NCBI GenBank assembly: GCA_025463265.1
Contig: JAOBWH010000124.1
Span: 1-36,037, forward strand
Origin: Ilumatobacteraceae bacterium
Lineage (GTDB): Bacteria; Actinomycetota; Acidimicrobiia; Acidimicrobiales; Iamiaceae
DNA length: 36,037 nt
Reading direction: 5' to 3'
Shown here: positions 15,149 to 32,951 of the stretch, in pieces
Layout: every line of letters begins with the position of its first letter
Position numbering within the stretch: the first letter of the stretch is position 1
Notes under the pieces: model-generated
Database searches by the model: none
What the model was told of the DNA's origin: nothing
Seen by the model: only the letters and a program-made list of their open reading frames with translations
Translations under genes and position numbers: made by a program

Positions 15149-16087
15149 ATGAGCCTCCGCCTCCGCATCTTCACCGAGCCCCAGCAGGGGGCGTCGTACG
15201 ACACCCTCCTCGCCGTCGCCCTGGAGGCCGAACGCCTCGGGTTCGACGCCTTCTTCCGCTCGGACCACTACCTGAAGATGGGCGACGTGTCGGGCGATCC
15301 GGGTCCGAGCGATGCGTGGATCACGCTGGCCGGTCTGGCCCGGGACACCTCGACGATCCGCCTCGGGACGCTGGTCACCGCGGCGACCTTCCGGCTGCCC
15401 GGCCCGCTCGCCATCTCGGTGGCCAACGTCGACGCCATGAGCGGCGGCCGGGTCGAGCTCGGGCTCGGTTCGGGCTGGTTCGACGGCGAGCACACCGCGT
15501 ACGGCATCGCCTTCCCCGACCTGAAGGAGCGCTTCGACCGCTTCGAGGAGCAGCTGGCGATCATCACCGGCCTGTGGACGACGCCGGGAGGCGAGACGTT
15601 CTCGTTCGACGGCGAGCACTACCAGCTGACCGACTCGCCGGCGCTCCCGAAGCCGGTGCAGTCGCCTCGTCCGCCGATCCTGATCGGGGGTGGCGGGGCC
15701 AAGCGCACGCCTCGGCTCGCCGCCACCTACGCCGATGAGTTCAACGTCCCGTTCTCGTCGCTCGAGGACACGGGCGCGGCGTTCGACCGGGTGCGCGCCG
15801 CGTGCGAGGCCCGGGACCGGGATCCGGGCGACGTCGTGTACTCGGCGGCCCAGGTCGTCTGCGTCGGTGCCGATGAGGCCGAGGTCGCCCGTCGCGCCGC
15901 CGCCATCGGCCGCGACCCCGACGAGCTGCGGGCCAACGGCGCGGCCGGGACGCCCGAGGAGGTCGTCGCCCGGCTCCGGCAGTTCGCCGACCTCGGCGCC
16001 GCCCGGGCCTACCTGCAGGTCCTCGACCTGAGCGACCTCGACCACCTTGCGCTCATCGCCGAGGAGGTCGTTCCGCACCTCGGCTGA
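15149..16087 (+). CDS. LLM class F420-dependent oxidoreductase
   Basis: A 312-residue TIM-barrel oxidoreductase of the luciferase-like family. Signature parts: AERLGFDAFFRSDHY near the N-terminus, LGTLVTAATFRLPGPLA, GGRVELGLGSGW with the FDxEHxAYGI segment, PRPPILIGGGG for the phosphate site, and a C-terminal YLQVLDL strand. Actinobacterial members of this group mostly use cofactor F420 rather than FMN; that is an inference from the family. The ATG at 15149 lies 6 nt after TAGCAA, a weak leaderless-type -10. Single gene, pointing toward egtB. Confidence 0.87.
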   Translation: MSLRLRIFTEPQQGASYDTLLAVALEAERLGFDAFFRSDHYLKMGDVSGDPGPSDAWITLAGLARDTSTIRLGTLVTAATFRLPGPLAISVANVDAMSGGRVELGLGSGWFDGEHTAYGIAFPDLKERFDRFEEQLAIITGLWTTPGGETFSFDGEHYQLTDSPALPKPVQSPRPPILIGGGGAKRTPRLAATYADEFNVPFSSLEDTGAAFDRVRAACEARDRDPGDVVYSAAQVVCVGADEAEVARRAAAIGRDPDELRANGAAGTPEEVVARLRQFADLGAARAYLQVLDLSDLDHLALIAEEVVPHLG

Positions 16088-16169
16088 GCGCCGCTCCGGT
16101 TGGAGGGGCCCGCCAGCGGGAAGCCCTCCCGGTGCCTGCCGAACCAGCCGTCTCCGGAGATCTCGTCCG

Positions 16170-17465
16170 ATGAGCGTGGCGCGCTCGTACGCTCGTGGCG
16201 TGGCTGGTGGGTCGGAGGAGACCGGAGGGCGCGCGTCGGTCGATCGGTTCACCGCGGTGCGCGACCTGACCGAGGCCCTGGCCGCGCCGCTGTCGGCCGA
16301 GGACCAGACCGTGCAGTCGATGCCGGACACGAGCCCGACCAAGTGGCACCGCGCCCACACCACCTGGTTCTTCGACGAGTTCGTCCTCGCACCGCACCAC
16401 GGCGGTCACCAGACCTTCGACCCGGACTTCGCCTTCTTGTTCAACTCGTACTACGAGGCGGTCGGCCCCCGGCACCCCCGGGCGGCGCGCGGGGTGGTGA
16501 GCCGGCCTGGCATCGAGGAGGTGGCGGCGTTCCGGGCCCACGTCGATGCGGCGGTCGTCGAGCTGCTGGACGCCGAGCCGGCACCGGCCGTCCTGGAGCT
16601 GGTGGAGCTGGGCATCAACCACGAGCAGCAGCACCAGGAGCTGCTGCTGATGGACATCAAGCACGCGCTGTCGCTGAACCGGATCGACGCCGTCTACCGG
16701 TCGGCCCGCCAGCCCGAGTGCCCGGCGTCCGACCTCCGGTGGATCGGGAACGACGGCGGCAAGACCCGCATCGGCCACGAGGGCGGCGGGTTCGCGTACG
16801 ACAACGAGGGACCGGCGCACCACGTGTGGCTGGAGCCCTTCGAGCTGGCGTCTCGCACGGTGACCAACGCCGAGGTGCTGGCGTTCATCGACGACGGCGG
16901 CTACCGGCGCAGCGACCTGTGGCTCTCGGAGGGCTGGGCCACGGTCCAGGCCGAGGGCTGGGAGGCGCCGCTCTACTGGCGAGACGATGACCGCAGCTGG
17001 TCGGTCTTCACGCTGGCGGGCCGCCGTCCGGTCGACCCGCACCAGCCGGCCTGCCACCTCAGCTACTACGAGGCCGACGCCATCGCCCGGTGGCTCGGTG
17101 CGCGCCTGCCCACCGAGTTCGAGTGGGAGGCGGTGGCGGCGGGCCACGAGCCGGCGGGCAACCTCCTCGATGTCGAGCTGCTGCACCCGCTCCCGTCGGC
17201 GGGCGACGGGTCCGGCCCCGATCAGCTGTTCGGCGATGTGTGGGAGTGGACGGGCAGCGCCTACCTGCCGCACCCGGGTTTCCAGCCCGCCGCCGGAGCG
17301 GTCGGCGAGTACAACGGCAAGTTCATGGTGAACCAGCAGGTGCTGCGGGGCGGCGCGTGCGTGACGCCCCCGGGCCACGTCCGGGCCACGTACCGGAACT
17401 TCTTCCCACCCTCGGCGCGCTGGGCGTTCAGCGGTGTCCGGCTCGCCCGGTCGGTGGCGCCGTGA
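16170..17465 (+). CDS. egtB: Ergothioneine biosynthesis sulfoxide synthase EgtB
   Basis: A 431-residue non-haem iron enzyme that joins hercynine (trimethyl-histidine) to cysteine or gamma-glutamylcysteine with oxygen during ergothioneine synthesis. The N-terminal DinB-like part carries the iron ligands: WHRAH (His60/His63) and HEQQHQE (His151, His155). The C-terminal FGE-sulfatase-type domain closes with FGDVWEWTGSAY, QQVLRGGACVT and the RNFFPPSARWAFSGVRLAR end. ATG at 16170 with GGAGA upstream. No egtD, egtA or egtC is in the window, so hercynine must be made elsewhere. Its last 38 nt overlap the convergent MFS gene. Confidence 0.92.
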   Translation: MSVARSYARGVAGGSEETGGRASVDRFTAVRDLTEALAAPLSAEDQTVQSMPDTSPTKWHRAHTTWFFDEFVLAPHHGGHQTFDPDFAFLFNSYYEAVGPRHPRAARGVVSRPGIEEVAAFRAHVDAAVVELLDAEPAPAVLELVELGINHEQQHQELLLMDIKHALSLNRIDAVYRSARQPECPASDLRWIGNDGGKTRIGHEGGGFAYDNEGPAHHVWLEPFELASRTVTNAEVLAFIDDGGYRRSDLWLSEGWATVQAEGWEAPLYWRDDDRSWSVFTLAGRRPVDPHQPACHLSYYEADAIARWLGARLPTEFEWEAVAAGHEPAGNLLDVELLHPLPSAGDGSGPDQLFGDVWEWTGSAYLPHPGFQPAAGAVGEYNGKFMVNQQVLRGGACVTPPGHVRATYRNFFPPSARWAFSGVRLARSVAP

Positions 17466-24678: not shown

Positions 24679-25230
24679 TCAGCCAGCGGGCGGGACGCTG
24701 CCGACGTAGCCGTGGTCGACGATCATCTGGGCCGTCTCCAAGTAGTCCTCGCGCGCCGGCGGGGCCCAGGTGGCGAGGCCGTCGACGTAGCGGTTGAACA
24801 TGCAGAAGGCGGCGGCGATCAGCACGGTGTCGTGGATCTCCACGTCGGTGGCGCCTTCGGCCCGGGCGGTCGCGATGTCGGCGTCGGTCACGGTGCGGCC
24901 GTCCACCCGCACCTTGGCGGCCACCGCCAGCAGGGCGCGGAGCTTGGGGCTGATGGGTGCGGCGGCAGGATCGGCCAGCACGGCATCGACGGTGTCCCAG
25001 CCGCCCTCGATCTGCAGGGCGGAGAACGCGGCATGGGAGTTCGTGCAGAACTGGCACTCGTTGCCGTTCGACACGGACGCGGCGATCAGCTCCCGTTCAC
25101 CTCGCCCCAGGGTGCTGTCGCCGCGCAGCAGCTGCTCGGCGAGCGCGTTGAGCACCACGCCGGTCTCCGGCCGGAACGCCATCGGGCCGGTGATGCCGGG
25201 CAGGCCTTCGGGAAGTGCGATGTGGGCCAT
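24679..25230 (-). CDS. Carboxymuconolactone decarboxylase family protein (AhpD-like)
   Basis: A 183-residue all-helical AhpD-like protein. The redox motif NECQFCTNSHAAF supplies CxxC and the downstream His, preceded by the family Glu in ERELIAASVSN. These proteins act as thiol peroxidase-reductase partners or as small peroxidases. The length suggests the single-domain peroxidase-related group rather than a true decarboxylase. ATG at 25230 with GGAGGGG upstream, a strong ribosome site. Likely first gene of a two-gene unit with the GNAT; it diverges from the SRPBCC gene. Confidence 0.87.
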   Translation of the reverse strand: MAHIALPEGLPGITGPMAFRPETGVVLNALAEQLLRGDSTLGRGERELIAASVSNGNECQFCTNSHAAFSALQIEGGWDTVDAVLADPAAAPISPKLRALLAVAAKVRVDGRTVTDADIATARAEGATDVEIHDTVLIAAAFCMFNRYVDGLATWAPPAREDYLETAQMIVDHGYVGSVPPAG

Positions 25231-25378
25231 GGTCCCCTCCACGTCGTGTCGTGTGCGACCGCCCGATGATGGTGCAATCCGTCGGCCGGTGCTGCGCCTC
25301 CCGCGCTCGAGGGCGTCCGTGCTCGGCCAGGCACCCCACCGAGGGGCCACCGGCAGCGCACGCTCGTCGAGGTGGCGG

Positions 25379-25384
25379 TACGGT
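25379..25384 (+). promoter_or_regulatory. -10 box of a probable leaderless transcript (SRPBCC gene)
   Basis: TACGGT, six bases, then ATG at 25391. Confidence 0.45.
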
Positions 25385-25390
25385 CCGCCG

Positions 25391-25867
25391 ATGACCGATG
25401 TGCCTGCTCCGGATCCTGCTGACGCCGTCTCGCTGCGGATCGAGGCCTCGCCCGACGCCCTCTACGACCTGATCAGCGATCCGGCGAGGATGGGTGAGCT
25501 CAGCCCGGAGTGCACCGGGGGCCACTGGCTCGACGGCGCCACCGGCCCCGCGGTCGGGGCACGGTTCAAGGGGACCAACAAGCGCGGCTTCGTCCGGTGG
25601 TCGACGAAGAGCACCGTCGTCGCCGCCGATCCGGGCCGGGAGTTCGCGTTCGAGGTCGGCGACAGCGGGACCCGCTGGCGCTACACGTTCGAGCCCGACG
25701 GGTCCGGCACGGTGGTGACCGAGTCGCGCGTCGCGTCCAAGCCGTATCCGTTCATCGCCCGGGCGTTCACCACGGTGGCGCTGGGGGGCGTGGCCCGCCA
25801 CACCGAGGAGCTGCGGGCCGGCATGGCCGCCACCCTGGAACGGTTGAAGGCGCTGGCCGAAGCCTGA
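25391..25867 (+). CDS. SRPBCC family protein
   Basis: A 158-residue single-domain SRPBCC (polyketide cyclase/dehydrase-like) protein: SLRIEASPDALYDLISDPARMGELSPE opening, central GARFKGTNKRGF strand, then WRYTFEPDGSGTVVTESR and a long C-terminal helix (HTEELRAGMAATLERLKALAEA). It should bind a hydrophobic small molecule in the cytosol; ligand unknown. Leaderless-type start at 25391, and a GC-rich hairpin lies just after its stop. Confidence 0.85.
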   Translation: MTDVPAPDPADAVSLRIEASPDALYDLISDPARMGELSPECTGGHWLDGATGPAVGARFKGTNKRGFVRWSTKSTVVAADPGREFAFEVGDSGTRWRYTFEPDGSGTVVTESRVASKPYPFIARAFTTVALGGVARHTEELRAGMAATLERLKALAEA

Positions 25868-25875
25868 CCGCCTCC

Positions 25876-25894
25876 CCCGGCCGGGTGAGCCGGG
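25876..25894 (+). terminator. Possible terminator after the SRPBCC gene
   Basis: CCCGGC (25876-25881) and GCCGGG (25889-25894) form a 6-bp stem with a 7-nt loop a few bases after the stop codon. No T-tract. Confidence 0.35.
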
Positions 25895-25944
25895 CGGACG
25901 GCCCCGTGATCGGTCAACTTCTCGCATCGGCGGTGCAAACACCC

Positions 25945-25966
25945 CTAGCCTGGGTCCTCGGGCTAG
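25945..25966 (+). promoter_or_regulatory. Inverted repeat upstream of the His-rich membrane protein gene
   Basis: CTAGCC (25945-25950) and GGCTAG (25961-25966) separated by 10 bp, just before the ribosome site AGGGGAA. Candidate operator or leader hairpin. Confidence 0.4.
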
Positions 25967-25982
25967 CAACAGGGGAACGGCC

Positions 25983-27659
25983 GTGAGCGAGACACTCGTC
26001 GATCAGGATCACGACGCGCCGTTGCCGGCGCCCGGGCGAGCACCGGCCGAGCCGCACCTGGGCTGGGCCCTCGCCGGCCTCTCTGCCGGCGCCGGCGTCA
26101 TCCACATCGCCATGACGCCGATCCACGCCGGCGCAGCCTGGCAGGAGGCCCTCGGGTTCGCCGCCAGTGGCTGGTTCCAGCTCGTCACCGCCGGCGCCGT
26201 GCTCGCCAACCGGGCCGGCAAGCGCTTCTACCAGCTGGTGGCGCTGGCGAACCTGGCCTTCCTCGGGGCCTGGATCTACAGCCGGACCATCGGGCTGCCG
26301 TTCGGGGAGAACCCCAACGTCGCCGAGTCCATCGGTGCCATCGACGCCGTCTGCGCCGCGCTCGAGGTCGGCGTCGTCCTCATCGCCTTCCGGCTGATCA
26401 TGTCGCCCGAGCGCCGCTCGGTCGGCCGCCTCGCCCCGGCGATGTGCGCCGTGGCCGCCCTGGGCCTCGCCACCGTCGTCATCACGTCGCCCGATGCCGC
26501 GAACCACAGCCACAACGGCGCCGCCGCCGAGCCCACCGGCATCGACGCGCTGCGCATCGCGGTCGACAAGGACCGCTGCGACCGATCGTTCAACATCCCC
26601 GGCTACTACAAGGAAGCCAAGTACCTCGGGGTCGACACCCGCTGGGGCGACAACCCGCCGGCGGTCGCCGGCGCCCCGGCCGCCTCCGCCGACGGCCACA
26701 CCCACGGCGCCGCCGCCGCCACGACGGCGAGCAGCACCACCACCACCGAGCCCGACCCGTTCGAAGGCCGGGGCTCGCCGGGTCTCGACAAGCTCGTGTC
26801 CGACACCGGCCTGGCCGCCACCAGCGAAGGCGCCGCGGCCGTGCTCATCACCTCGCTCAGCAAGGCCACCCAGGAGGACTACGACGCCTGGCTGTGGTGG
26901 CTCCGCAGCTCGGGCTCGCTCAGCCACGAGCACGCCTCCACCTCGGCAGCCGGCGACGGCAGCGGTCACGGCGGCCACGTCGGCCCGCAGCCCTGGGTCG
27001 CCATGACCGACCAGAAGCTGTGCGACAAGACCGAGGCCGAGCTCCAGCTCGCCCGCCAGACCGCCATGGCGTACCCGACGGCGCGGGACGCCAAGGACGC
27101 CGGCTACCGCCTCGTCACCGGCTACGTCCCGGGCATCGCGGCGCACTGGATCAAGGGCGAGCTCATCGACGACACGTTCGAGATCGACAAGCCCGAGATG
27201 ATCCTCTACGACGGCGACGGTCTCGACGCCCACGTCGTGGGGCTGAGCTACTACCAGTGGCACGCAGGAGACAACAAGCCCACCCAGGGCTTCACCGGCG
27301 ACAACGACCACGCCCACCGCCACATCGGCCTGTGCTCCAGCAAGACCACCGGCCAGATCATCGGCGACAGCACCACCAGCGAAGCCGACTGCGTGGCCCG
27401 CGGCGGCTCCAAGGCCGACGGCTCGATGGGCTGGATGAGCCACGCCTGGGTGGTCGAGGGCTGCGAGAGCCCGTGGGGCGTGTTCAGCGCCGCCAGCCCG
27501 GTCCTCGACGACGACCTCGGCAAGGTGTCGGGCACCGACGGCGGCCACTGCGCCGGGTCCGGCGTCCGCGACCGCTACGACATGGACGACGCCCCGAAGG
27601 CCACGCCCGAGCCCGACGGCGACGCCACCAAGACCACCGGCGGAACAGCCGGCAACTGA
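25983..27659 (+). CDS. Multi-pass membrane protein with His-rich linker and unnamed extracytoplasmic domain
   Basis: A 558-residue protein. Residues 1-170 hold five hydrophobic segments (about 27-49, 57-76, 82-103, 118-138, 148-167) of a type seen in other actinobacterial membrane proteins. A low-complexity region follows with histidine clusters (NHSHNG, DGHTHG, SHEHAS, GHGGHVG). Residues about 360-510 form a conserved-looking domain I cannot name: AYPTARDAKDAGYR, AHWIKGE, YDGDGLDAHV, GLSYYQWH, GDNDHAHRHIGLC, CVARGGS and MSHAWVVEGCESPWGVFS. The grouped His, Asp and Cys suggest metal binding, perhaps copper or zinc (inference). GTG start with AGGGGAA upstream. It is a single gene. Confidence 0.75.
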   Translation: MSETLVDQDHDAPLPAPGRAPAEPHLGWALAGLSAGAGVIHIAMTPIHAGAAWQEALGFAASGWFQLVTAGAVLANRAGKRFYQLVALANLAFLGAWIYSRTIGLPFGENPNVAESIGAIDAVCAALEVGVVLIAFRLIMSPERRSVGRLAPAMCAVAALGLATVVITSPDAANHSHNGAAAEPTGIDALRIAVDKDRCDRSFNIPGYYKEAKYLGVDTRWGDNPPAVAGAPAASADGHTHGAAAATTASSTTTTEPDPFEGRGSPGLDKLVSDTGLAATSEGAAAVLITSLSKATQEDYDAWLWWLRSSGSLSHEHASTSAAGDGSGHGGHVGPQPWVAMTDQKLCDKTEAELQLARQTAMAYPTARDAKDAGYRLVTGYVPGIAAHWIKGELIDDTFEIDKPEMILYDGDGLDAHVVGLSYYQWHAGDNKPTQGFTGDNDHAHRHIGLCSSKTTGQIIGDSTTSEADCVARGGSKADGSMGWMSHAWVVEGCESPWGVFSAASPVLDDDLGKVSGTDGGHCAGSGVRDRYDMDDAPKATPEPDGDATKTTGGTAGN

Positions 27660-27707
27660 CCCGAGCGCGCACCGTTCCGACCGGGGCGCCCTCGAAGGAC
27701 CGCATCG

Positions 27708-27756
27708 GTTCTTGTTCCGGTTCGACTCCGCATCGGAGCCCGATCGGAACGAGAAC
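27708..27756. repeat. Palindromic repeat unit 1
   Basis: A 49-nt imperfect hairpin: 27708-27730 pairs with 27734-27756 around loop CAT, with two mismatches and a few G-T pairs. Its right arm contains GATCGGAACGAGAAC (27742-27756), repeated in unit 2. It lies 49 nt past the stop of the His-rich gene and may also act as a terminator. Confidence 0.75.
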
Positions 27757-27767
27757 GGGACGGCGGC

Positions 27768-27818
27768 GATTCCTGTTCCGATCCGGCTGCCCTGGGGAGC
27801 CAGATCGGAACGAGAACC
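27768..27818. repeat. Palindromic repeat unit 2
   Basis: A second hairpin of similar sequence: 27768-27788 pairs with 27798-27818, with three mismatches, closing on a GC-rich loop. GATCGGAACGAGAAC recurs at 27803-27817, 61 bp after unit 1. Together they look like a pair of REP-like units. The rest of the gap (27819-27978) holds no gene, only the short tandem repeat at 27942. Confidence 0.7.
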
Positions 27819-27941
27819 GTCACGGCATCGTGCGGGTCAGCGGGTGCCGAAGGTGCAGTGCCACCTGCTCGCGTCGGCTCGGTCGAGCGTCCCGAACGGC
27901 ATCACCTCAGGAGCGGCTGGCATCAGCGAACGGTACCGGCC

Positions 27942-27971
27942 GCACCCCGGCTGCACCCCGGCTGCACCCGG
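27942..27971. repeat. Tandem 11-bp repeat, about 2.7 copies
   Basis: The unit GCACCCCGGCT occurs at 27942 and 27953, with a diverged third copy from 27964, just after the ung stop codon on the minus strand. Confidence 0.65.
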
Positions 27972-27978
27972 GGACCCG

Positions 27979-28650
27979 CTACCGGTCGGGGATCCGCCAG
28001 TCGATCGGCGTCCGGTCGGCGGCCGCGAGGGCGTCGTTGGTCTTGGAGAACGGACGGCTGCCGAAGAACCCGTTGCGAGCCGACAGGGGCGAGGGGTGGG
28101 CGGACTCGACCACGACGTGGCGGTCCCGGTCGATCAGCTCCTTCTTCCGGCGGGCGGCGGCCCCCCAGAGGATGAACACGACCCGGTCCTCCTTGGCGGC
28201 GACGGCCCGGATGACCTCGTCGGTGAACGTCTCCCACCCGTGCTTCTGGTGCGACGCCGCCTGGTGGGCCCGCACCGTGAGGGTGGTGTTGAGCAGCAGC
28301 ACGCCCTGGTCCGCCCAGGCGTCGAGGCAGCCGTGGTTCGGCGCCGGGATGCCCAGGTCGGCCTCGAGCTCCTGGTAGATGTTCCGCAGCGACGGGGGGA
28401 GCGCCACCCCCGGGCGGACCGAGAAGCACAGGCCGTGGGCCTGACCGGGCCCGTGGTACGGGTCCTGGCCGAGGATCACCGCCTTCACGTCCTGATACCG
28501 GGTCTGGTGGAGGGCGGCGAACACCTGGTCGTGGGGCGGGTACACGGTGTGGTGCTGGCGCTCATCGGCCACGAACGACTGGAGCGCCGGCCAGTAGGGC
28601 TTGGAGAACTCCGCCCGCAGGATCGGGTTCCAGTCCGTCTGCTGCGCCAC
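27979..28650 (-). CDS. ung: Uracil-DNA glycosylase (family 1)
   Basis: A 223-residue enzyme that removes uracil from DNA to start base-excision repair. All family-1 motifs are present: the water-activating loop GQDPYHGPGQAHG with catalytic Asp63 (Asp64 in E. coli), GLCFSV, LLLNTTLTV, and the minor-groove loop HPSPLSA; FFGSRPFSKTN completes it. The GTG at 28650 matches the usual N-terminus (AQQTDWNPIL...PYWPALQSFV) and has TAGGTT seven nt upstream; a GTG at 28674 is in frame but less likely. It diverges from the histidine kinase gene. Confidence 0.95.
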   Translation of the reverse strand: MAQQTDWNPILRAEFSKPYWPALQSFVADERQHHTVYPPHDQVFAALHQTRYQDVKAVILGQDPYHGPGQAHGLCFSVRPGVALPPSLRNIYQELEADLGIPAPNHGCLDAWADQGVLLLNTTLTVRAHQAASHQKHGWETFTDEVIRAVAAKEDRVVFILWGAAARRKKELIDRDRHVVVESAHPSPLSARNGFFGSRPFSKTNDALAAADRTPIDWRIPDR

Positions 28651-30790: not shown

Positions 30791-32170
30791 ATGGGTACGC
30801 CCCCGACCCTCAACGTCAGCCTCAGCAGCCGCCTCGCCGCGGCAGGAGCGTCCGCGGACCACGAGACCGAGACGGGGATCCAGCGCGTCCGGGGCTGGTG
30901 CCTCGTCCTGGCGCTGGTGCAGACCGCTCTCTACCCGGGCCAGTACTGGTACCTGGCGTGGGGCGCCATGGCGGTGCTGTTCCTGAGCTGGTTCTGGATC
31001 CGCTGGGCCCTCCAACCCGAGACGCCGACGCCGACGCCGCTGATCGGCGTCGTCGCCATGGCGTCGGACTCGATCGTCGTCATCATGATCATGGCCAACC
31101 TGATGGCCAGCTCGGACGACCCGATCCAGCTCCTGCCCCTGGCGCTCGCGGTCGAGGCCGCCATCCGCTGGGGACGCATCGGCGGCGTGGTCGGCGGCGT
31201 CTGCGGTGGCCTGCTGCTGACCGGCTGGTCGCTGGGGACCCACGTCCGCAACGACCTCGACTTCTCGATCGGCTACGCCTGCTTCCGGTTCGGGGTCGTC
31301 GTCCTGATCGCCTCCATCCTCGGCAACGCCGTGCACGAGATGCGCCAGCAGCGGCGTGCCGCGGAGGCCGTCTTCCAGGCGTCGCGCGATCTCATGATCA
31401 CGTTCTCGCTCGACGGCCGGGTGCGGTCGGCCAACCCGGCGTGCGAGACCGTGCTCGGCTTCACGCCCGACGAGCTCGAGCAGCGGGACCGCTCGTTCCT
31501 CCTCGACCCCGAGGACGGACGGGACTCCGTCGCCCTGCTCACCCACACCGACGGCCCGCAGCGCGCCGTGCGCCGGGTCCAGCACAAGGACGGCCACCTG
31601 GTCTGGATCGAGCTGGACCTCGTCCCCGACGTCCGGGCGGGACTGGTGTACGCCATCGGCCGCGACATCAGCGACCGCAGCCGCACCGAGTCCGAGCTGC
31701 GCCACCGGGTCGACCACGACGGCCTCACCGGTGCGTGGAACCGCCACGCCCTCGTCGCCTACCTGCACCGCATGCTCAACCGGGGCTACCTGCCCGGCCT
31801 GGTGTTCATCGACCTCGACCGGTTCAAGGAGATCAACGACCGCCACGGCCACCTCACCGGCGACGACGTGATCATCGCCCTCGCCGGCCGTCTCGCCGAC
31901 GCCGCCGGCCACGAGGGCTCGGTGGCCCGCTACGCGGGTGACGAGTTCTGCATCGTCGTCGACGACCCCGACGATCTCGAGCTCGTCGCCGAGCGCACCC
32001 GCCAGGCCTTCGACGAGCCGTTCGAGGTCGGCGACCTGGTCCTGCCGGTGACGGGGTCGGTCGGCGAGGCGCGCAGCCGCTCGGGCGACACCCCCGAGAG
32101 CCTGGTGCACCGGTCCGATCAGGCCATGTACGAGGTCAAGAAGGCCGCCCGGATCAGCCTCGGAACCTGA
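30791..32170 (+). CDS. Membrane PAS-GGDEF diguanylate cyclase
   Basis: A 459-residue protein. About five hydrophobic segments (residues roughly 35-190) form an unnamed membrane sensor; a PAS domain follows (about 190-300: FQASRDLMITFSLDGRVRSANPACETVLGF, then WIELDLVPD and GRDISDRSRTE), then a GGDEF domain (about 305-455). The active loop reads AGDEF (near 382-386), a variant that is often active, with FIDLDRFKEINDRHGH upstream. No RxxD inhibitory site is seen. It would make c-di-GMP in response to a ligand or redox signal at the PAS domain. Upstream (30713-30790) no convincing promoter is visible. Confidence 0.88.
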   Translation: MGTPPTLNVSLSSRLAAAGASADHETETGIQRVRGWCLVLALVQTALYPGQYWYLAWGAMAVLFLSWFWIRWALQPETPTPTPLIGVVAMASDSIVVIMIMANLMASSDDPIQLLPLALAVEAAIRWGRIGGVVGGVCGGLLLTGWSLGTHVRNDLDFSIGYACFRFGVVVLIASILGNAVHEMRQQRRAAEAVFQASRDLMITFSLDGRVRSANPACETVLGFTPDELEQRDRSFLLDPEDGRDSVALLTHTDGPQRAVRRVQHKDGHLVWIELDLVPDVRAGLVYAIGRDISDRSRTESELRHRVDHDGLTGAWNRHALVAYLHRMLNRGYLPGLVFIDLDRFKEINDRHGHLTGDDVIIALAGRLADAAGHEGSVARYAGDEFCIVVDDPDDLELVAERTRQAFDEPFEVGDLVLPVTGSVGEARSRSGDTPESLVHRSDQAMYEVKKAARISLGT

Positions 32171-32234
32171 GAGCCCGCTCGGAGCCGACCTCAGCCGATC
32201 CCGCCGACCACGGGAACCCGGCCAGACTGGTCCG

Positions 32235-32951
32235 ATGCTGAAGAAGCTGATCGCCGCCATCATCGTCGTGGTCCTGGTCGGGGGTGCGGCCCTCTGGTTC
32301 TTCGTGCTGAAGGACGACCCGGAGCCCGAGCTGTCCGTCGACACCGGCACCGACACGAGCCAGACCACCACGGGCACCACGCCGGCGTCGCTCGACGGCA
32401 CCTGGTCCATCCAGGAGGGCGGCGACACCACGGCCGGCTTCCGCATCGAGGAATCGTTCGCCAGCGGCCTGGCCGACCACACGGCGGTCGGTCGATCAGA
32501 GGATGTGACCGGGTCGATCGCCATCGAGGGCAGCGCGATCACCGAAGGCAGCTTCACGGTCGATCTGACCGGTCTCGCGTTCACGGACAACCCCGCGGGG
32601 TTCTCGGTCACGAACCGGGCGAACGCCATGAAGAACCGGGGCCTGGAGACCTCGACGTTCCCGGATGCCACCTTCGAGCTCACCGAGCCCATCGACTTCG
32701 GCGAACAGCCCGCAGCGGGCGAGACCGTCACCGCGACGGCCACGGGTGATCTGACCATCCACGGCGTCACCAAGCCGGTCACCTTCGACGTGGAGGCCAA
32801 GGTGGTCGGCGACACCATCCGCGTCGCCACGGCCGATCCGGTCCCGGTGGTGCTCGCCGACTACGACATCGACAAGCCCGAGGGTGGCCCCATCGCCTCC
32901 GTCGACGACAAGGGCTCGTTCGAGTTCCTCATCGTCCTCGGTCAGGGCTGA
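32235..32951 (+). CDS. YceI family protein, membrane-anchored
   Basis: A 238-residue protein with an N-terminal anchor or uncleaved signal (LIAAIIVVVLVGGAALWFFVL), a Thr-rich linker and a YceI lipocalin-like barrel: DGTWSIQEGGDTTAGFRIEE, GSFTVDLTGLAF, NRGLETSTFPDATFELTEPI, TGDLTIHGVTKPVTFDV, and FEFLIVL. YceI barrels bind isoprenoid or amphiphilic molecules in the envelope; the ligand here is unknown. A weak -10 (CAGACT) lies six bases before the ATG. Its last 10 nt overlap the end of the convergent acylase gene. Confidence 0.88.
   Translation: MLKKLIAAIIVVVLVGGAALWFFVLKDDPEPELSVDTGTDTSQTTTGTTPASLDGTWSIQEGGDTTAGFRIEESFASGLADHTAVGRSEDVTGSIAIEGSAITEGSFTVDLTGLAFTDNPAGFSVTNRANAMKNRGLETSTFPDATFELTEPIDFGEQPAAGETVTATATGDLTIHGVTKPVTFDVEAKVVGDTIRVATADPVPVVLADYDIDKPEGGPIASVDDKGSFEFLIVLGQG

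Follow-up and report, generated by a model that had tools for sequence, protein, structure and literature searches.

A four-histidine extracytoplasmic domain on a membrane anchor in an Ilumatobacteraceae bacterium: a candidate copper-linked redox protein

Introduction

What is the function of a membrane protein that belongs to no named family and carries, in its C-terminal domain, four histidines that hardly vary among its relatives? The question is raised by a gene of an Ilumatobacteraceae bacterium (genome of 4.05 Mb in 204 contigs), in which a stretch of 36,037 nucleotides (contig C88, here called the window) was analysed. The initial annotation of this stretch, made from the sequence alone, proposed a metal-handling or metal-sensing surface protein. 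Here the gene, its relatives, its upstream DNA and its possible kinship to known families are described, and the readings of its function are weighed against each other.

Results

The open reading frame at 25983-27659 on the forward strand starts with GTG and encodes a membrane protein of 558 residues. It is a genuine gene, since its product had a match in 26 of the 61 genomes searched (its own genome counted) and relatives at six named loci, which are Acidimicrobiales/Acidimicrobiia or Actinomycetota metagenome assemblies, align with it over almost the full length at 43-60% identity. A likely ribosome-binding site, AGGGG, lies at 25971-25975 of the forward strand; by eye, the same letters were found 5' of the start in seven of the 13 relatives printed, and in an eighth, L039, they sit before a start downstream of the one used. 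The same genome encodes a full-length paralogue (L007:3868-5490, contig C83) that is about 45-49% identical to the 558-residue protein. The gene had been described as a single one, and the comparison of 11 loci with the window agrees with this: flanks in common with the window were found only in L038, L042 and L044 have flanks in common with each other, and no conserved operon around the gene emerged. No metal gene was found among the window neighbours scanned for domains. Elsewhere in the window, a YceI-domain protein is encoded at 32052-32948, about 4.4 kb downstream of the four-His gene, and the protein of 16032-17462 combines DinB_2 and FGE-sulfatase domains, a layout which we take to be that of the ergothioneine synthase EgtB.

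The product was said to be assignable to no family, and the library searches confirmed this. The 558-residue protein gave no Pfam or NCBIfam match at E <= 1 (the NCBIfam check covered this protein and one short-family protein) and no PHROGs match at 0.01, and among PDB sequences there was no match to the protein (E <= 1) or to the domain profile (E <= 5). Known copper or zinc transport families such as CopC, CopD, ZIP and CDF were likewise absent, the window protein matching no Pfam family at E <= 1, and plastocyanin/azurin (PF00127) had no match in it, that domain being present only in relatives. The C-terminal domain is covered by no curated family in the libraries searched (Pfam, NCBIfam and PHROGs). 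Literature searches on OBAP/DUF1264, TetR regulons, steroid degradation in Acidimicrobiia and the halves of the upstream dyad described below gave nothing on the window protein, a silence that is weak evidence of absence because the family has no name to look for. The structure models, made with seven sequences each, were of low confidence (mean pLDDT 54.9 for the full length and 56 for the C-terminal domain alone); neither of them had a Foldseek match at E <= 0.001, and a second structural comparison of the domain model reached a Z of at most 3.0. This lack of a structural match is not taken to signify a new fold. The model of the membrane part matched many helical bundles with Z up to 10.5 (dystrophin complex, tetraspanin, VKOR, ferritins), as well as the copper storage protein Csp1 (Z 8.9-9.2); these matches were rejected as kinship and taken as a common arrangement. 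A viral, phage or plasmid origin was also rejected, as profiles A2, A1 and A3 found no relatives in viral contigs and the C-terminal domain of the window had no relative at E 0.01 in the phage and plasmid collections.

The membrane module (residues 24-168; 26052-26486, forward strand) has five predicted helices, at residues 24-44, 53-74, 80-102, 119-140 and 151-168, with block pLDDT of 50-89. The five-helix part of the initial annotation is thus present in the predicted model, but a plain hydropathy threshold is passed only by the last two helices, so that it is the model and the relatives that speak for five. Positive loops at 75-80 and 141-150 suggest an N-in/C-out topology; if it holds, most of the residues invariant in the module (H41, H48, Q66, W97, R101, G104, E115 and D121; 26 rows aligned, gaps excluded) would lie at the outer face. 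The segment that follows (residues 169-337; 26487-26993, forward strand), which would point outward, contains spaced HxH pairs; it is more than a linker, as it holds the conserved residues R198-C199-D200, E282 and Y300. The protein had been called His-rich, with repeated His clusters. The HxH pairs are indeed present, but the richness is mild, His making up 3.6% of the whole protein (20/558) and 4.6% of the linker (8/174) against up to 4.0-4.45% in other genes of the window, so the name misses the feature worth noting, which is the particular His that stay conserved. In six relatives the linker contains 4.2-12.9% His.

The C-terminal domain (residues 338-545; 26994-27617, forward strand) was defined by profile searches and alignments, and its family is represented by profile A2, built from 32 domain sequences. 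The motifs picked out at the outset are where they were read, with AHW at residue 387, DNDHAHRHIGLC at 440 and MSHAWV at 485. Four conserved histidines are encoded on the forward strand: H388 (27144-27146), H445 and H447 in the HxH of a WHxH motif, here HRH (27315-27323), and H487 in an HxW motif (27441-27443). We gathered 80 distinct homologues, i.e., all loci except L075-L165, including 20 regions hand-picked from the order-wide match list; 13 of them form a short secreted branch that lacks the WHxH pair, and the other 67 are of the WHxH type. All four His are present in 66 of these 67, a count that is not independent of the search because the gathering profile is biased towards these residues, and the sole exception, L185, has Tyr in place of H388. 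C451 and C470 are present in all 67. Within the aligned homologues, the conservation of the four His is made telling by the spread in the rest of the sequence. The window protein, with its four His and Cys pair, is a member of this WHxH/HxW family. D442 is Asp in 56 of the 80 homologues and E405 is Glu in 50 of the 80, so neither residue is universal.

The A2 domain turned up in at least 61 of the 198 genomes sampled from the order and at least 19 of the 198 taken from the phylum as a whole, own genome included; these are lower bounds because only 16 first-look candidates were scored in many genomes. One genome carries the domain at ten places on ten contigs. As read from the translations, the domain is modular and shared among differing architectures: it occurs with a different membrane module in L021, L036, L027 and L049, in small proteins after a lipoprotein-like or single-helix start in L032 and L035, and in a lipoprotein branch, where a plastocyanin/azurin domain follows it, in L050, L051 and a further 12 regions among the 20 picked, a tally that gives no frequency estimate because the regions were chosen partly for odd matches. 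The Pfam cut-off for plastocyanin/azurin (21.2 bits) was passed by all ten of those 12 that were scanned (22.7-38.5 bits) and by L050, scanned separately (28.6 bits), and the type-1 ligand pattern PHT..C.LHP.M was found in 11 of 11 branch members checked. These lipoproteins share the domain, with its four His and its Cys pair, with the window protein, whereas a lipoprotein-type N-end and a C-terminal type-1 copper domain replace its membrane module and His segment. The branch consists of L050, L051, L166-L176 and L181, and two genomes have three cupredoxin-fused copies each (L169-L171 and L172-L174). Met is frequent in some linkers of relatives, with 15 in 80 residues in L178, which is very Met-rich, eight in L177 and seven in L180. 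Segments rich in Met are a common feature of Cu(I)-binding proteins.

Profile comparison showed that the short secreted branch (profile A3) is clearly homologous to the family of the window domain (hhalign probability 98.8%, E 6e-17 against A2). It shares the core GxHY...PE.L.Y...LV.VEY...LHxW...NPxGxF..NP; unlike the window protein, it has no membrane module and no WHxH pair, and its Cys pair stands at other positions. The full four-His set is therefore not universal in the wider family. In the plasmid collection A3 matched eight records (Ensifer, Neorhizobium, Gemmatirosa, Limimaricola and four haloarchaeal), seven of which are annotated as hypothetical protein, the Gemmatirosa record being unannotated. 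The A3 relatives L068-L074 are carried by large plasmids from rhizobia, Limimaricola and haloarchaea, and no shared annotated neighbour was seen in the seven of the eight records looked at, where annotation is incomplete.

Comparison with relatives revealed a dyad upstream of the gene, TCGCAT-CGGCG-GTGCAA (25922-25938, forward strand), two mismatches away from TTGCAC-N5-GTGCAA; the left half of the window copy would be -35-like. A -10-like TAGCCT (25946-25951, forward strand) was picked out by eye 18 nt past this hexamer; similar TAnnnT hexamers occur at 16-18 nt in seven of the 13 relatives printed, and a consensus scan for promoters gave none at this site. The inverted repeat noted before the gene, CTAGCC/GGCTAG, does exist (25945-25966, forward strand) and overlaps the -10-like element, but its folding is hardly more stable than that of shuffled sequences (z -1.36; 21 of 200 equal or better) and the repeat was not seen by eye in the relatives printed. 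No Rfam match was found in 25000-28500.

With at most two mismatches, TTGCAC-N5-GTGCAA was found upstream of 15 of the 25 testable loci (one further locus has too little upstream DNA), a count in which part of the sequences are those on which the dyad was first spotted by eye. The spacer is 5 nt in all 15 although 4 to 6 was allowed, and for these dyads 0-6 of 300 mononucleotide shuffles matched as well. Long-form genes have it in 13 of 16 cases; it is missing in L018, L043 and the own-genome paralogue (L002 in this count), where the best candidate differs at 5 mismatches and is not recognisable as a dyad. The window copy is weak, as 42 of 100 window shuffles contain a two-mismatch site somewhere, and the dyad is not over-represented genome-wide (6 sites versus 29 for the reversed control pattern). 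Six further one-mismatch sites in the own genome each adjoin a plausible gene start (uncertain in L076), and for five of these genes an orthologue from another genome within the genus is likewise accompanied by a site with at most one mismatch. Genes at which the dyad recurs are orthologous YceI genes (four genomes of the genus), branched-chain-type permeases (four genomes), cytochromes P450 (four genomes; L079, L087, L102 and L125), flavin monooxygenases that resemble PtlE below the model cut-off, as scanned in L084 (two genomes), and LIP secretory lipases (two genomes). Divergent from the P450 gene lies a thiolase gene in L079 (own genome) and L125 and a luciferase-like monooxygenase gene in L087. 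In the own genome the YceI gene with the dyad upstream is L138:337-2517 (contig C82), whose product of 727 residues combines the YceI domain with a CxxCH segment resembling cytochrome c, below the Pfam cut-off, and with Cu2_monoox_C. Flanks were inspected for 39 distinct sites, a subset of the sites listed, and 18 of them lie at recurring genes or the four-His family and 21 elsewhere, in a tally whose GC-based gene filter may miss genes. A TetR gene in genome G005 (L083) adjoins a perfect dyad; it is not proposed as the regulator because, among 20 loci of this TetR and its relatives, only the query's own has a site (none of the 19 others at up to two mismatches, against 13 of 200 shuffled loci), and a literature search for the dyad halves with TetR gave unrelated papers. 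The dyad likely marks a regulon of oxidative-catabolism genes, which we hold as unproven because it lacks over-representation, has a weak window copy, occurs elsewhere at 21 of 39 sites and has no regulator identified.

Discussion

We read the window protein as a copper-linked extracytoplasmic redox protein that would serve in the oxidative breakdown of hydrophobic compounds, and we put the probability of this reading, in which metal, substrate and activity are all conjectural, at roughly 0.4. The protein would be anchored in the membrane, and its C-terminal domain would bind a metal ion, most likely copper, with some or all of H388, H445, H447 and H487 as ligands and a likely disulfide between C451 and C470. 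The His-bearing segment between membrane and domain may collect metal or pass it on; the polar set of the membrane module (H41, H48, R101, E115 and D121) probably faces the same outer side, where a lipid-like substrate or a quinone may be bound by it. The domain would then carry out redox chemistry on hydrophobic compounds or transfer electrons to them, as part of a set that the dyad, as a putative operator, would define together with monooxygenases, a lipase and a transporter. A copper-type site in a redox protein is suggested by the invariant His, the likely disulfide, the outward position and the cupredoxin fusions, and action on hydrophobic compounds by the dyad common to oxidative-catabolism genes. 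Copper is indicated in general by Met-rich or His-rich extracytoplasmic segments together with cupredoxin partners. This reading is limited by the window protein itself, which has no cupredoxin domain and a modest His content, and by the A3 branch without the WHxH pair. The metal-handling surface protein of the initial annotation fits these results, given nearly invariant four His and relatives fused to a type-1 copper domain. A metal-sensing role is unsupported, as the scanned neighbours are not metal genes, the flanks are unconserved and the dyad goes with oxidative-catabolism genes.

The same His segment and four-His domain could instead hold copper (or zinc) at the surface for acquisition, storage or tolerance, with no catalysis. 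The linkers with up to 12.9% His, the Met-rich linkers of relatives and the cupredoxin fusion would all suit such a role, which we nevertheless consider rather improbable: the scanned neighbours include no metal gene and the flanks are not conserved, the dyad is common to oxidative-catabolism genes, and single His at fixed places resemble a defined site more than a sponge.

Kinship to DUF1264/OBAP (PF06884) leads to a different view, in which the protein binds lipid or associates with lipid bodies and the conserved His are structural, with no role for a metal. A passage of PMC6914826 names OBAP1 as an oil-body protein and states that the role of such newly found oil-body proteins needs study. 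An OBAP profile was made from seven plasmid OBAP/DUF1264 proteins taken from 46 matched records, two of them Pfam-checked, and A2 matched it with a probability of 78-81% and a score of 42.8, while the best of 400 column shuffles scored 28.3 and the reversed control 12.3. The alignment covers YDG..PDA.LIG.eY, WH.H and H.W, and the motif order of OBAP (HY, YDG..PDA.LIGIEY, WHSH, HTW) recurs in the window domain in changed form (HW, LSY, HRH, HAW). However, the match is short (19 columns in its strongest part, unrealigned, and 86 realigned), the window protein has no match to the Pfam model, whose cut-off is 25 bits, and its relatives stay below that value; any kinship is remote at best. One of the 32 domain sequences reached DUF1264 at E 0.054, which alone is chance level, and the A3 short family by itself matched OBAP weakly (probability 10-12%). 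A search for DUF1264 in 100 genomes of the phylum found none and says nothing on absence, because 14 controls had no match either. From these comparisons, the window domain is probably a remote homologue of DUF1264/OBAP, not a member. A lipid-body function would agree with the dyad common to lipase, P450 and thiolase genes; the copper-domain fusions do not fit it, and we regard it as unlikely.

A zinc-type metallo-hydrolase acting on lipids or cell-surface polymers would go with the conserved His, near which the long form has D442 and E405, but is very unlikely, as neither acidic residue is universal among the 80 homologues and the cupredoxin partners are redox proteins.

For the putative copper-linked redox protein, an analogue is found in the copper type II monooxygenases (Cu2_monoox_C, PF03712), which it would at most resemble in working through a His-ligated extracytoplasmic copper site; the window protein has no Pfam match to them, and one Cu2_monoox_C protein, that of L138, has the dyad upstream. 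It is doubtful, though conceivable, that the family is a new class of extracytoplasmic four-His copper oxidoreductase, carried on a multi-helix anchor or beside its own cupredoxin donor and remotely akin to OBAP, oil-body proteins of plants and bacteria, which would then be metal proteins too.

Conclusions

His-ligated extracytoplasmic metal proteins are a known kind, and the domain family itself is unnamed. The domain is widespread, being carried by 61 or more of the 198 genomes sampled from one order and by ten contigs of one genome, and the libraries searched contain no curated model for it. Should it prove to be a copper enzyme, it would add a chemistry to lipid or terpenoid turnover in the poorly studied Acidimicrobiia, and through the link to OBAP a plant lipid-droplet family would gain a first biochemical idea that can be tested.
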